64,000 nt of DNA from Brumimicrobium oceani (GTDB lineage: Bacteria > Bacteroidota > Bacteroidia > Flavobacteriales_D > Crocinitomicaceae). Where the stretch lies: assembly GCF_003143775.1 (NCBI RefSeq), contig NZ_QFRJ01000004.1, positions 62,001 to 126,000 on the forward strand, given 5' to 3'. A model generated the notes under the pieces. The model saw only the letters and a list, made by a program, of their open reading frames with translations, did not search any database and was not told the DNA's origin. Of the stretch, positions 51,256-56,585 are shown one piece after another. A program made the position numbers and the translations under genes. The stretch's first letter is position 1. Each line of letters begins with the position of its first letter.

Positions 51256-52875
51256 ATGCGAAATACACTTTTACATCTTACGTTATTTGTTCTGTTTAGC
51301 TTTATTGGCAAATTGAATTACGCACAAGTCATTGCGGACTTTGATGATATTTCAATATTTTTTGGTGACAAACAAAAGTCTGGATCAAATGTTGAAAGTT
51401 TATTAAAAACTGAATCCGATCAATTGATTTGTGTTCAAAATGAGCTTTCTTTTTCCAATGTATTTTCTAGGAACAACTCTAAATATGCTTTTAATTTTAT
51501 CACTGATTATAAAATACCAGAGGCGCATCCCATAACTTTTTACGGAAATGGTAAGAAATCTAGTCTCACACATTACAGTGTTTTGGGGGATAACATTCTT
51601 GGTATTTCTTCGCAAACAGCATTTCTGAACAAAGAGCAAAAATTATATTTCCATTTCATCAATTTATCCTCTCAAGGCAAATCGAATCATGGTTTTCCGG
51701 TTAAAGATTATTTTTTCATCAATGGAGAGGTTGACTTATCTGAAATTACAGTCGTGAGCAGTCAAGATAAAAACTATGCTTCCATGATTTACATCCATGA
51801 ATCAGCACCAGAAAATTATAAAAACATAAAATACCTAAATTTCAAGAACAACTCTCCCCTGCCCCAAAGCGGAAACTTTATTTACCCCTTCCCTCCCGAT
51901 GAATTTGAATTTTTAGATTTCTATATTAAAGATGAAAGTACTCAATACATCACTTCTGGACATTTTTTAAAAAATGTAACAACAAAAAACTGGAACCAAC
52001 AATCGAAATACTACAAATCTATTACGGTTGGTGAAATAAAGAATCAGAAATTTAGTTATGTTACTATCGAGGACGAGGGAAAATTCTATTCACAACTAGA
52101 AGTAAATAATTTGTCTGATCAAATTACGATAAGTGGATTATACGCTTCTTTCATAGACGCCAATATTGAAGGTGTGTTTACTGCAAAAATCACAGAAGAT
52201 GGGACAATTGTAGACAAGCAATACTCCCCATTCTCTAACGACGTAATTTCAACTATCGCAACTTACAATTTGGATTTCCTAAATGATCAAAACACTATTA
52301 AAAATGAATACCTAGGATTTGAAATTATAGAATTCTATGCTACAAAAGATGGATATTTGGGAATGGCAGAGTTTAAAGCTTTAGAGTACAGATATGGAAG
52401 CGCCGATGTTCCGGGTGCAACAAACACCGTAGATTCCTACTACTGGAGCAATGACCTAATCGTTTTTAAAATAAATTCTGATGGTCATATTGTTTGGGAC
52501 AGGACAATCCCCAAATACCAGAGATCTATAAATGACGGAGGCTATCATTTATCAAGCGCAAGTTATTTAGATGCCAAAAAGCTGCACATTTTCTTTAATG
52601 ACAACCTGCTTAACTATGACCAAGATGGAGACTACAATAGAAACGGAGATTTCCCATATGCCACTCAATTTAATGCTGGAAAAAATACCATAGCCCATGT
52701 TTCTCTTAACCTTGAAGATGGATTTTTAGAAAGGAAGAGTACCATTGGCAAAGAGGAAACCAATTTGTTATTTGTTCCTCTTCTTGCCACACCATTTCCC
52801 GCTACTAAAAAATTAATGATTTACGGCAGAACAGGAAATAAGCAAAAGTTAGGCAGTATTAGTTTCCCCGATTGA
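51256..52875 (+). CDS. Secreted protein of unknown function, probably a beta-propeller
   Basis: A 539-residue protein with a signal peptide (HLTLFVLFSFIGKLNYAQ). No catalytic motif is recognised. Repeated strand-turn segments such as DNILGISSQTAFLNKEQKL, NSDGHIVWDRTIPKYQRS and GTIVDKQYSPFSNDV suggest a beta-propeller or similar repeat fold. No type IX sorting tail is seen at the C-terminus. It stands alone between purB and the outer-membrane barrel gene. Function unknown. Confidence 0.65.
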   Translation: MRNTLLHLTLFVLFSFIGKLNYAQVIADFDDISIFFGDKQKSGSNVESLLKTESDQLICVQNELSFSNVFSRNNSKYAFNFITDYKIPEAHPITFYGNGKKSSLTHYSVLGDNILGISSQTAFLNKEQKLYFHFINLSSQGKSNHGFPVKDYFFINGEVDLSEITVVSSQDKNYASMIYIHESAPENYKNIKYLNFKNNSPLPQSGNFIYPFPPDEFEFLDFYIKDESTQYITSGHFLKNVTTKNWNQQSKYYKSITVGEIKNQKFSYVTIEDEGKFYSQLEVNNLSDQITISGLYASFIDANIEGVFTAKITEDGTIVDKQYSPFSNDVISTIATYNLDFLNDQNTIKNEYLGFEIIEFYATKDGYLGMAEFKALEYRYGSADVPGATNTVDSYYWSNDLIVFKINSDGHIVWDRTIPKYQRSINDGGYHLSSASYLDAKKLHIFFNDNLLNYDQDGDYNRNGDFPYATQFNAGKNTIAHVSLNLEDGFLERKSTIGKEETNLLFVPLLATPFPATKKLMIYGRTGNKQKLGSISFPD

Positions 52876-53776: not shown

Positions 53777-54994
53777 ATGCTTTACACTTTAGGCATCTAC
53801 TTTTATGGTTTTCTATTAAAACTAGGATCTCTTTTTCATCCAAAGGCCAAAAAATGGGTTAATGGAAGAAAGAACTTTTGGAATAAAATCCCCCATCTTT
53901 CAAATCAAAACCTTGTTTGGTTTCATTGTGCTTCTTTAGGAGAATACGATCAAGGAAAACCCATAATGGAAGCTTGGAAAAAAGCTCATCCCAAAGATTT
54001 TATTTTAGTTAGCTTTTTTAGTCCATCTGGATATGAAAACGTAAAAGACAAATCTGTTGGAGATTACACATGTTACCTTCCTTTAGACACAAAGAAAAAT
54101 GCAAAAAAGTTCATGCAACACTTCAAACCAAGCGTTGTGTTTTTTGTGAAATACGAAATTTGGGTTAATCACTTAAAAGCGGCAAAGAAAAGTGGGGCTA
54201 AACTATACTCTGTCAGTGCCTCCTTTAGAAAAAACCACCGCTTCTTCCAGTGGTATGGGGGAACCTTCAGAAAAGCATTGTTTTTATTTGACCATATTTT
54301 TGTTCAGTATCCTCTAAGTAAAGAGTTACTATCAAAGATAGGGGTCCAAAATGTGACCGTTTCGGGCGACACACGATATGATCGTGTTGCTCAGAGGGCA
54401 GAGGAAGAAAAGGAGAACAGCATAATTGCTCCCTGGGCTAAAAACGAATCTATTTTCGTGATAGGGAGTTCTTGGCCTGATGATGAAGAGATGATTCTTC
54501 CTTATATGAATGACTATAAAATTAACACGAAGGTCATCATCGCTCCCCATGAGATAGATCGCGCACATATTCAGGAAATCATCGATCGTTTAAAAGTAAG
54601 CTATCAACTGTATACTAATATCCAAAACGGAGAAGAGCTAAAACGCCACACCCAAGTACTCATTCTAGACTGCATAGGTGTTTTAGCAGATGCCTACAGG
54701 TATGGAAATATCGCTTATGTTGGCGGAGGATTTGGAACGGGCTTGCACAACATATTAGAACCCGCTTCATTTGGTTTACCCGTAATTTTTGGCCCCATTC
54801 ATAAAAAGTTTCCTGAAGCTCAGGAGTTCATAAATAACGGAATTGCCAAGAGCTGCGATGAAAACAAATCCTTTTTTGAAGCCTACACCTTATTCGCAAA
54901 GACCCCGTCTATTCAAACACAAGTGAAAGAGTTTATTGCCAGTAAACGAGGCGCAACTCAAATAGTGATGGAGGAAATTCAGTCATCTGAGTAA
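53777..54994 (+). CDS. waaA: 3-deoxy-D-manno-octulosonic acid (Kdo) transferase
   Basis: A 405-residue inner-membrane glycosyltransferase that adds Kdo to lipid A precursor using CMP-Kdo. An N-terminal membrane anchor (LYTLGIYFYGFLLKLGSLF) is followed by WFHCASLGEYDQGKPIMEAW, where the glutamate in SLGE is the conserved catalytic residue, and the C-terminal domain has NIAYVGGGFGTGLHNILEPA. Domain layout and length are normal. It is the second gene of an operon with the barrel protein. Confidence 0.95.
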   Translation: MLYTLGIYFYGFLLKLGSLFHPKAKKWVNGRKNFWNKIPHLSNQNLVWFHCASLGEYDQGKPIMEAWKKAHPKDFILVSFFSPSGYENVKDKSVGDYTCYLPLDTKKNAKKFMQHFKPSVVFFVKYEIWVNHLKAAKKSGAKLYSVSASFRKNHRFFQWYGGTFRKALFLFDHIFVQYPLSKELLSKIGVQNVTVSGDTRYDRVAQRAEEEKENSIIAPWAKNESIFVIGSSWPDDEEMILPYMNDYKINTKVIIAPHEIDRAHIQEIIDRLKVSYQLYTNIQNGEELKRHTQVLILDCIGVLADAYRYGNIAYVGGGFGTGLHNILEPASFGLPVIFGPIHKKFPEAQEFINNGIAKSCDENKSFFEAYTLFAKTPSIQTQVKEFIASKRGATQIVMEEIQSSE

Positions 54995-55223
54995 TTTTGT
55001 ATGCTTCTAGTTCTGAATTTTAGGGGAAATCCCGTTTCCATAATCATTCTTCTTTTTCAAATTGTAACTCAACGCTAGGCTCACATTCTTCAAGTCTAGA
55101 AGCGCCCCACCACAACCTCGATTGAATATCTTTAATCAGTAATTCCATGATTACAAAATGGAAAATCAGACATTACGGTAAGAAATCTAAATACAAGAAA
55201 CAGAAAGTAATTGCACAATCCAT
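54995..55223. other. Spacer after waaA with one doubtful leftward small frame
   Basis: The only point of note is a leftward 34-residue frame at 55044-55148 (starting MELLIKDIQSRLWWGASRLE). It has no strong ribosome site or known relative, so it is discussed under findings and not called as a gene. Confidence 0.4.
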
Positions 55224-55253
55224 TTGCGTTTTAAAGAAAAACTGCTAATTTAG
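55224..55253 (+). promoter_or_regulatory. Promoter of the IS200-like degenerate gene
   Basis: TTG at 55224-55226 and TAATTTAG at 55246-55253 are 19 bases apart. Spacing fits the Bacteroidota consensus exactly and the -7 box departs from TAnnTTTG by one base. The ATG is at 55282. Confidence 0.6.
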
Positions 55254-55281
55254 TTATCACTAACACTTTAAATCAAAAAAC

Positions 55282-55734
55282 ATGGATAATCTAGATCAAG
55301 TTCACTGTCATGCATGGATACATTGCTTGATATCAACAAAGGATGAAACACCATCAATTCAACTTCATTTTAAGGAAGAACTTCACGAGTTGATTCAAGC
55401 TACATTTTCAAGCATGGGTTCAACCGTTAGGATAATTAACAGTTCTCCAACACATTTGAATTGTTTATTCAATCTTAACCCCTCAAAATCTGTTCAAGAA
55501 ATTATAGACAAAGTCAGAGATGTATCTTCTCAATTCATAAACTCAAAAACAGGAGTTGATAAGCAATCTATTTGGGAAGAAGATTTTAGTTGTATTTCAG
55601 TAGATGCCACGAATATAGAAGAAGTTTACAGCTTTATAAGGGACCAAGAAATAAGAAATCTACAAAACAACAACATCAGTGAGTTTTCTCAATTTTTAGA
55701 AGTTCATGGTGTAGATCTCGAGGCCGCAGAATAG
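55282..55734 (+). CDS. IS200/TnpA-like (Y1 HUH) protein lacking catalytic residues
   Basis: A 150-residue protein that aligns, from memory, along its full length with Bacteroidota IS200-type TnpA transposases: LHFKEELHELIQATFSSMGS, then the HUH region, then KSVQEIIDKVRDVSSQFIN, IWEEDFSCISVD and FIRDQEIRN. In active enzymes the HUH region reads PDHIH; here it is PTHLN, so the second metal histidine is Asn60. The usual nucleophile in YxxxQ is Phe118 (FIRDQ, Gln122 kept). The frame is intact and has its own promoter, and I see no IS end hairpins. It is probably a host protein that kept the fold and perhaps DNA binding but not cleavage. Pseudogene is less likely because there are no stops or frameshifts. 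Confidence 0.7.
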   Translation: MDNLDQVHCHAWIHCLISTKDETPSIQLHFKEELHELIQATFSSMGSTVRIINSSPTHLNCLFNLNPSKSVQEIIDKVRDVSSQFINSKTGVDKQSIWEEDFSCISVDATNIEEVYSFIRDQEIRNLQNNNISEFSQFLEVHGVDLEAAE

Positions 55735-55750
55735 TACCAACAAAACAAAA

Positions 55751-55794
55751 CCCTCCAAAGTCAGTCTGCTTATTGCGTGACGAAACTTGGAGGG
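55751..55794. terminator. Hairpin terminator between convergent genes
   Basis: CCCTCCAA at 55751-55758 pairs with TTGGAGGG at 55787-55794, with an inner GTCA/TGAC pairing. Read leftward, a T-rich tract (TTTTGTTTTG) follows, so it suits best the end of the Bax-inhibitor-like gene's transcript. Confidence 0.65.
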
Positions 55795-55853
55795 TATTGT
55801 ATTAAAAGATATTTTATAGAGGAATAACACCTCAAACAGCATTCCGTTAGGGT

Positions 55854-56585
55854 TTATTCTCTTCCACCTAACAGGTGTAATAATGACATAAACAAGTTGA
55901 TGAATAAAATATAAAGAGTTAAACCACCCATTAAGCTTGCTTTGGCTTTATCCTCGGAAGAAACAGAAGCATCTAGAGCTATTGCTTTCAAGCGTTGCAT
56001 TTCCCAAGCTGTTAAACCTGTAAAAACAAATACTCCAACGATTGAAATGAGGTAAGCTAACCACTCACTGTTCATGAACATGTTTACAATGGCAGCAATA
56101 AAAATCCCTATGAATGCCATGTACAACAGACTTCCCATTTTTGATAGGTCGACTGAAGTGGTATAGCCCAGTATCGCCATTGCACCAAAAGCACCTGCTG
56201 TAACGAAGAATGTTATTGCAATATCTCCCATACTGTAAACAAAAAAGATAGAGGCCAAACTAGCTCCAATCAATGAAGAGTACAATACAAAAAGTCCAAC
56301 CAATGCCGGAAGTGAAAAACTTCTGTACTTTGCTTGAATTAAAAATACCAATGCTAAAGGTGAGAAGGCTACAACATAAAACAAAGGACTAACAGAACCT
56401 GTTTCAGCGTTTATGAACCATTCCATAAATAATCCAGAACTTGCTAAATACCAAGAAACAACACCTGAAACTAAGAGTGCCATAAACATATAGGTATAAA
56501 CTCCAGTAAAGAATTCCTTAACCTGCTGCTTAGTCGCTGTTTGATTAATTTGTGAATCAAACGATGAATCAATGTAATTTTCCAT
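55854..56585 (-). CDS. Bax inhibitor-1/YccA family membrane protein
   Basis: A 243-residue protein with seven hydrophobic segments, of the BI-1/TMBIM family. The conserved region GLTAWEMQRLKAIA and the C-terminal LMGGLTLYILFINLFMSLLH are typical; relatives act as pH-sensitive calcium leak channels or regulate the protease FtsH. The final segment LLHLLGGRE is short and lacks the aspartate pair seen in some members. A -7 box lies at 56610-56617. It is transcribed alone. Confidence 0.92.
   Translation of the reverse strand: MENYIDSSFDSQINQTATKQQVKEFFTGVYTYMFMALLVSGVVSWYLASSGLFMEWFINAETGSVSPLFYVVAFSPLALVFLIQAKYRSFSLPALVGLFVLYSSLIGASLASIFFVYSMGDIAITFFVTAGAFGAMAILGYTTSVDLSKMGSLLYMAFIGIFIAAIVNMFMNSEWLAYLISIVGVFVFTGLTAWEMQRLKAIALDASVSSEDKAKASLMGGLTLYILFINLFMSLLHLLGGRE

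Follow-up and report, generated by a model that had tools for sequence, protein, structure and literature searches.

What becomes of a Y1/HUH transposase protein when the residues of its cleavage reaction have been replaced? The question is raised by a gene of Brumimicrobium oceani located at positions 55282–55734 of the 64,000-nucleotide stretch of contig NZ_QFRJ01000004.1 that was analysed here and is referred to as the window. The open reading frame lies on the + strand, as do all features below unless stated otherwise, starts with ATG and encodes 150 amino acids. The original prediction regarded the gene as encoding a stand-alone homologue of IS200-type transposases, which has lost its catalytic residues and has been domesticated as a protein binding hairpin DNA or RNA. 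The frame is clean, as had been described.

The affiliation of the product with the Y1/HUH family was assessed by a profile search and by structure prediction. The Pfam profile Y1_Tnp (PF01797) matches residues 11–122 with an E value of 2.6e-13 (50.6 bits, cut-off 23). The same profile matches the orthologue from Brumimicrobium glaciale IC156, which shares 63% identity with the window protein over 147 residues with zero internal gaps, with an E value of 5.5e-14. In its own genome the window protein is the sole Y1_Tnp match of the profile search at E ≤ 0.01. It stays below the cut-off of the NCBIfam IS200 transposase equivalog (38.2 vs 55 bits), which two relatives with intact catalytic residues, L046 and L005, exceed (76.8 and 62.9). 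The AlphaFold model, built with 44 family sequences, has a pLDDT of 89.6, with residues 1–10 being poorly modelled (mean pLDDT 60). All 30 PDB chains that match the model in Foldseek at E ≤ 0.001 are Y1 transposases or the TnpAREP structure 4er8, and they include IS608, ISDra2 and the ISDra2 Y132F mutant 2xo6. The TM-scores are moderate (0.56–0.64 by query length), and the rmsd is 4.8–15.9 in the first 30 rows. A model from the two orthologues only, with a low pLDDT of 58.7, gave the same top family and the same order of the main elements, which weakly suggests, given its low confidence, that the fold is not merely imposed by the relatives. The search of the PDB by sequence returned nothing relevant, and PADLOC gave weak matches alone (E 0.006–0.01). 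The Y1/HUH homology is thus borne out by the Pfam match and by the match of the predicted fold to IS608 and ISDra2.

The loss of catalytic residues is evident from the comparison with the relatives. Nearly all relatives read contain a DH[VI]H or NHVH-type motif together with WQ and YIxNQxxHH, and both HUH histidines and the tyrosine are kept in 94 of the 94 other relatives. This set consists of 30 loci less the two orthologues, 17 sequences from the family-level homologue search, which covered 240 genomes, and 9 and 40 further stretches. It includes short or contig-edge pieces (L063, L065, L099, L111, L117) and sequences with in-frame stops (L076, L118, L119); seven further matches from the 240-genome search are outside it. 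In one homology search 70 of the 73 matches were read, the two orthologues among them, the excluded ones being a contig-edge piece, a sequence with an in-frame stop and a 54-residue fragment. In the window protein, the HUH motif, DH[VI]H in most relatives, is reduced to the relict T57-H58-L59-N60 (55450–55461), identical in the orthologue, and the HxH metal pair is absent in both proteins. The relict Y motif (55633–55659) reads F118-IRDQ(122)-EIRN instead of the YIxNQxxHH of most relatives: the glutamine of YxxxQ is present as Q122, and the nucleophilic tyrosine and the His-His pair are gone in both orthologues. The translation confirms T57, HLN (H58, N60), Phe118 and Gln122 as they had been read in the window protein. 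Positions T57, N60, F118 and Q122 are all common to the B. glaciale protein, as are HLN and Phe118 as motifs, in an orthologue collection that yielded two members in total. At the third site, W98-E99 (55573–55578), the tryptophan is found in 93 of 93 relatives and the following position is Gln in 92 of 93, with Glu99 in both orthologues.

Further changes were observed near the N-terminus. Residues C9, H10 and C15 are new and common to both orthologues, and they lie beside H8 and H14; H14 is regarded as old because His occupies this position in 58 of the 94 rows of the relatives' alignment. The window protein has a single tyrosine, Y116; since B. glaciale has Phe there, this residue was rejected as a substitute nucleophile.

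The replacements H60N, D57T and Y118F, seen in the window protein and in the orthologue, agree with the predicted loss of the catalytic residues. In the part of PMC8266576 that is cited here, changing Tyr to Phe in two TnpAREP proteins (Y130F and Y125F) left no cleavage product, and in a third the mutant Y115F yielded no strand-transfer product. Since these Tyr-to-Phe mutants are inactive, the change to F118 should by analogy abolish cleavage by itself. The window protein is probably unable to cleave or join DNA. One could instead think of an enzyme with altered chemistry, in which H58, N60 and Q122 hold the metal and another residue acts as the nucleophile; H58, W98 and Q122 are indeed retained in both orthologues, and C9, H10 and C15 could form a metal site with H8 and H14. 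However, zero tyrosines are common to the two orthologues, and residues 1–10 are poorly modelled. Furthermore, conservation among the relatives reaches 70% or more in 38 columns; both orthologues retain the conserved residue in 14 of these, one orthologue alone departs from it in a single column, and both depart in 23, two of the latter trivially (the start Met of the relatives and the end of the C-terminus). An altered enzyme is considered the least probable of the explanations discussed here.

The origin of the gene was sought among the known groups of Y1 proteins. According to the part of Quentin et al. 2018 (PMC6006769) used here, TnpAY1 subclass 1.2 has the signature Y---Q--HH, occurs in low copy, mostly in Bacteroidetes and Cyanobacteria, and is generally found without IS200 terminal structures. 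The relatives of the window protein look like members of this subclass and not like IS200 elements, and their similarity to the window protein suggests that the latter descends from this group. The window protein resembles the subclass, as portrayed there, in its size of about 150 amino acids, its Y1 core with a C-terminal tail (E134 and L139 kept), its low copy number, the lack of IS ends and its occurrence in Bacteroidetes; it differs in reading THLN / WE / F---Q--RN in place of the subclass signature DH[VI]H-like / WQ / Y---Q--HH and in being strongly acidic. Descent from an IS200 transposon, as originally assumed, is not supported, as the signature borne by the relatives is that of subclass 1.2, a stand-alone group. 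The missing IS ends are consequently little evidence of domestication, because the ancestor was probably stand-alone already. In a tree of 45 rows, with midpoint root and with L063 and L011 omitted, the two orthologues form one clade (100/100) whose stem measures 1.89 changes per column, compared with 0.58 between them, the placement of this long branch being unsure. The long stem and the short distance between the orthologues point to a phase of rapid change with constraint afterwards.

Within the genus, other subclass 1.2-like genes were encountered. Three congeners carry an intact gene of this kind with catalytic residues kept (L005, L006, L009) near the end of a gene that we take to be leuS, which is apparently a second fixed locus for such genes in Brumimicrobium. 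Orthology of these three genes with the window gene was ruled out, as they are at another locus and share 31–33% identity with it. In the subclass 1.2-like members L020, L025, L083, L084 and L096 of congeners, and also in L093, NHVH or NHLH replaces DH[VI]H.

The gene is present in 2 of the 10 Brumimicrobium genomes searched. In both species it lies between an upstream neighbour (53777–54994), presumably encoding a waaA-type Kdo transferase, and a downstream neighbour on the opposite strand (55854–56585, −), which we take to encode a BI-1/YccA-type membrane protein. The comparison of the gene neighbourhoods thus revealed a fixed chromosomal locus with the same order, waaA, the gene, BI-1, in B. 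oceani and B. glaciale. In five congeners (G003, G001, G005, G002 and G008) waaA and BI-1 adjoin without an open reading frame of at least 50 amino acids between them; an unrelated gene occupies this place in G009 and G006, and G007 has a different gene after waaA. When the waaA loci of the eight genus genomes without the gene were searched by tblastn, no remnant was detected (all matches E ≥ 1.5). When eight neighbouring proteins of six genomes were concatenated, the resulting tree, rooted on G002 by choice, placed the two gene-bearing species as sisters (99/99); in a tree of waaA alone, with ten genomes, the branching among these two and G003 stayed unresolved. The empty sites in five congeners and the sister relationship of the hosts imply that a single gain in their common ancestor, followed by vertical inheritance, is the simplest history. 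Scanning of genome contigs with two 7-residue patterns, which reach close relatives only, found B. glaciale alone. No further close homologue was detected in the order, class and phylum samples (399, 395 and 395 genomes, with E limits of 1e-24, 1e-24 and 1e-26), the scan of viral contigs gave no relative, and two plasmid records gave matches of 20–23% only. Two other observations concern the surrounding genes. The waaA frame of congener G009 (L043) contains one in-frame TAA, which is either a sequencing error or the mark of a broken gene. A 539-amino-acid protein encoded at window positions 51256–52875 diverges fast, with 67% identity to B. glaciale and 37% to G005, its neighbours being mostly slower.

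The low number of gene-bearing genomes, 2 of 10, together with a dN that is the highest among the 13 genes compared, would fit a non-functional relic that is being lost and is open in both species by chance. The mode of divergence between the orthologues argues against this. The NG86 method gives a dN of 0.264, a dS of 1.93 and a dN/dS of 0.14, and LWL85 a dN/dS of 0.29; across the methods dN is 0.25–0.26 and dS 0.85–1.93. The ratio pN/pS is 0.33 (95% bootstrap 0.24–0.45), the differences by codon position are 0.31/0.18/0.46, and there is no indel inside the 147 aligned codons. In a neutral simulation of the same divergence, in which indels were ignored, about 7 stops arose, 1 of 2000 runs remained free of stops and the mean identity fell to 8%. 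The promoter and leader, described below, are also similar in both species. A dN/dS below one had been proposed as a check, and although all 94 relatives keep HxH and Tyr, this copy shows purifying selection and not neutral drift. A relic is therefore improbable, even if a short-lived gene is still conceivable given two orthologues only and the highest dN. Two stretches of the gene, 9 and 7 codons long (55297–55323 and 55453–55473), are identical in DNA to the orthologue despite the high synonymous divergence. The shuffle p value is 0.035 for the longest identical run and 0.007 for the two longest (0.25 and 0.28 in the BI-1 comparison), in a test made post hoc; a constraint at the nucleotide level is possible.

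A promoter of the gene's own with 19-base spacing had been proposed. A putative Bacteroidota-type promoter, TTTG-N19-TAATTTAG, is indeed present at 55223–55253, assigned by a consensus that we assume for this phylum. Ahead of the B. glaciale orthologue lies TTTG-N18-TAACTTAG, likewise followed by the 5′ leader, so that the promoter-like TTTG-N18/19-TAANTTAG is common to both species. By itself, the pattern does not stand out from chance, with 2 matches in the window vs 3.76 expected. The 5′ leader ATCACTAAC...AAATCAAAA (55254–55281) resembles that of the orthologue, and the DNA further upstream does not. On the other side of the gene, the claim that no IS end hairpins are visible holds for IS ends, but a hairpin does exist at 55742–55803 (no strand assigned). 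It is terminator-like and is assigned to the convergent BI-1 gene, possibly also serving the window gene. A like hairpin precedes BI-1 in species without the gene, most clearly in G003 and G002, and the interpretation of the hairpin as an IS end or REP was ruled out on this ground. Between waaA and BI-1 no IS end hairpins or element borders were detected; the only structures there are the hairpin of the BI-1 terminator and some weak inverted repeats. At this locus no REP-like repeat lies beside the gene.

The composition of the protein bears on whether it still binds nucleic acid. Over the aligned core the net charge is −11 in the window protein and −10 in the orthologue, compared with a mean of +4.4 (sd 2.9, minimum −3) in the 91 relatives that have 120 residues or more in this core, L106 being excluded. 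The pI is about 4.9 in the two orthologues vs a median of 9.1 in the relatives. Glu22 (55345–55347), also Glu in the B. glaciale protein, stands where 88 of the 91 relatives have Arg. At position 79, Lys occurs in 93 of 93 relatives, but one orthologue has Arg and the other Gln. Residues R22 and K79 may contact DNA in the relatives. The acidic shift and the change of the conserved R22 to Glu argue against nucleic-acid binding of the ancestral type; composition is an indirect indication, and a local basic patch could still bind. The function originally suggested, binding of hairpin DNA or RNA, is thus disfavoured. The protein might nevertheless be dead as an enzyme and still recognise a DNA or RNA hairpin without cutting it, acting as a repressor or chaperone. 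This would accord with the retained fold in the predicted structure, with the entry title of 2xo6, according to which ISDra2 Y132F was crystallised with left-end DNA, an indication that a Tyr-to-Phe transposase keeps its hold on DNA, and with the two DNA-identical codon blocks (p about 0.007 in the post hoc shuffle). It is opposed by the charge, by the Glu in place of both R22 and Q99 in the two orthologues, by the failure to retain K79 as Lys and by the lack of a repeated hairpin at the locus beyond the BI-1 terminator and the weak inverted repeats. We regard a hairpin-binding role as rather unlikely, though clearly less so than a relic.

We slightly favour the explanation that a dead HUH fold descended from subclass 1.2-like HUH proteins has been repurposed as an acidic binding or scaffold protein. 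A copy would have entered the intergenic site between waaA and BI-1 in the common ancestor of B. oceani and B. glaciale. The cleavage chemistry would then have been lost wholly through H60N, which replaced the second metal-ligand His, D57T at the Asp before the HUH motif, Y118F, which replaced the nucleophile, and the loss of the His-His pair after the Y motif. The protein would have turned from basic to strongly acidic, while the fold, W98, H58, Q122, the promoter and the leader would have been retained under purifying selection. The ancestral hairpin binding was probably given up. TnpA is dimeric, and the compact HUH body of sheet and helices may have been kept as a small, perhaps dimeric scaffold whose partner would be a protein or a ligand. 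Together with H8 and H14, residues C9, H10 and C15 might bind this partner or a metal. The retention of W98, H58 and Q122 could also be a sign that a site for metal or nucleic acid is still in place. The further-reaching version, a full conversion to a regulator or scaffold that neither catalyses nor binds nucleic acid, in which H8-C9-H10...H14-C15 may hold a metal or partner and which would represent a cellular 'pseudo-HUH' family, is offered tentatively and seems somewhat doubtful. Domestication itself is a fair inference from the shared losses, the dN/dS below one and the fixed locus in two species; the IS200 origin and the hairpin binding that had been attached to it are not upheld.

Judged from sequence, the window gene encodes a conserved, acidic and catalytically dead protein that branched off from an HUH subclass already known and distinct from IS elements; two species were found to have it. 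The protein shares the predicted fold and the Pfam domain with the IS200/IS605 TnpA proteins of IS608 and ISDra2 but, unlike them, has neither catalytic Tyr, HxH nor IS ends, is a single copy and stays below the NCBIfam IS200 cut-off. With TnpAREP/RAYT, as far as described in the cited part of PMC8266576, it has in common that it is a stand-alone, host-retained protein of the Y1 fold, in line with the match to 4er8; unlike TnpAREP, which has the catalytic Tyr and cleaves REP hairpins, it lacks the Tyr and adjoins no REP-like repeat. Inactivated HUH nucleases are known from the origin-binding domains of papilloma- and polyomavirus replication proteins, which are reported to have passed from an enzymatic to a structural role (PMC6668415, cited in part). 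Those domains differ in belonging to another HUH branch, in being part of a protein with a helicase domain and in binding origins, as their name says. Among the matches listed in a search of open-licence papers, no report of a conserved catalytically dead Y1 protein was recognised, which is weak evidence that none exists. In the sections of PMC6006769 drawn on here, the main analysis is restricted to the 722 of 924 sequences in which the core is complete and neither motif is missing, the absence of motifs is read as a sign of non-function, and 5 of 10 class 3 members have no conserved HuH or Y motif. One motif-less Y1/HUH protein under selection implies that the sequences set aside by this survey, so far as it is represented here, may hold real genes. 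At the locus described, selection has maintained such a protein at one chromosomal position through the separation of two species. Among cellular proteins it would parallel the inactivated HUH domains of papilloma- and polyomaviruses, and it would provide a clean test of what the HUH fold is capable of without its chemistry.
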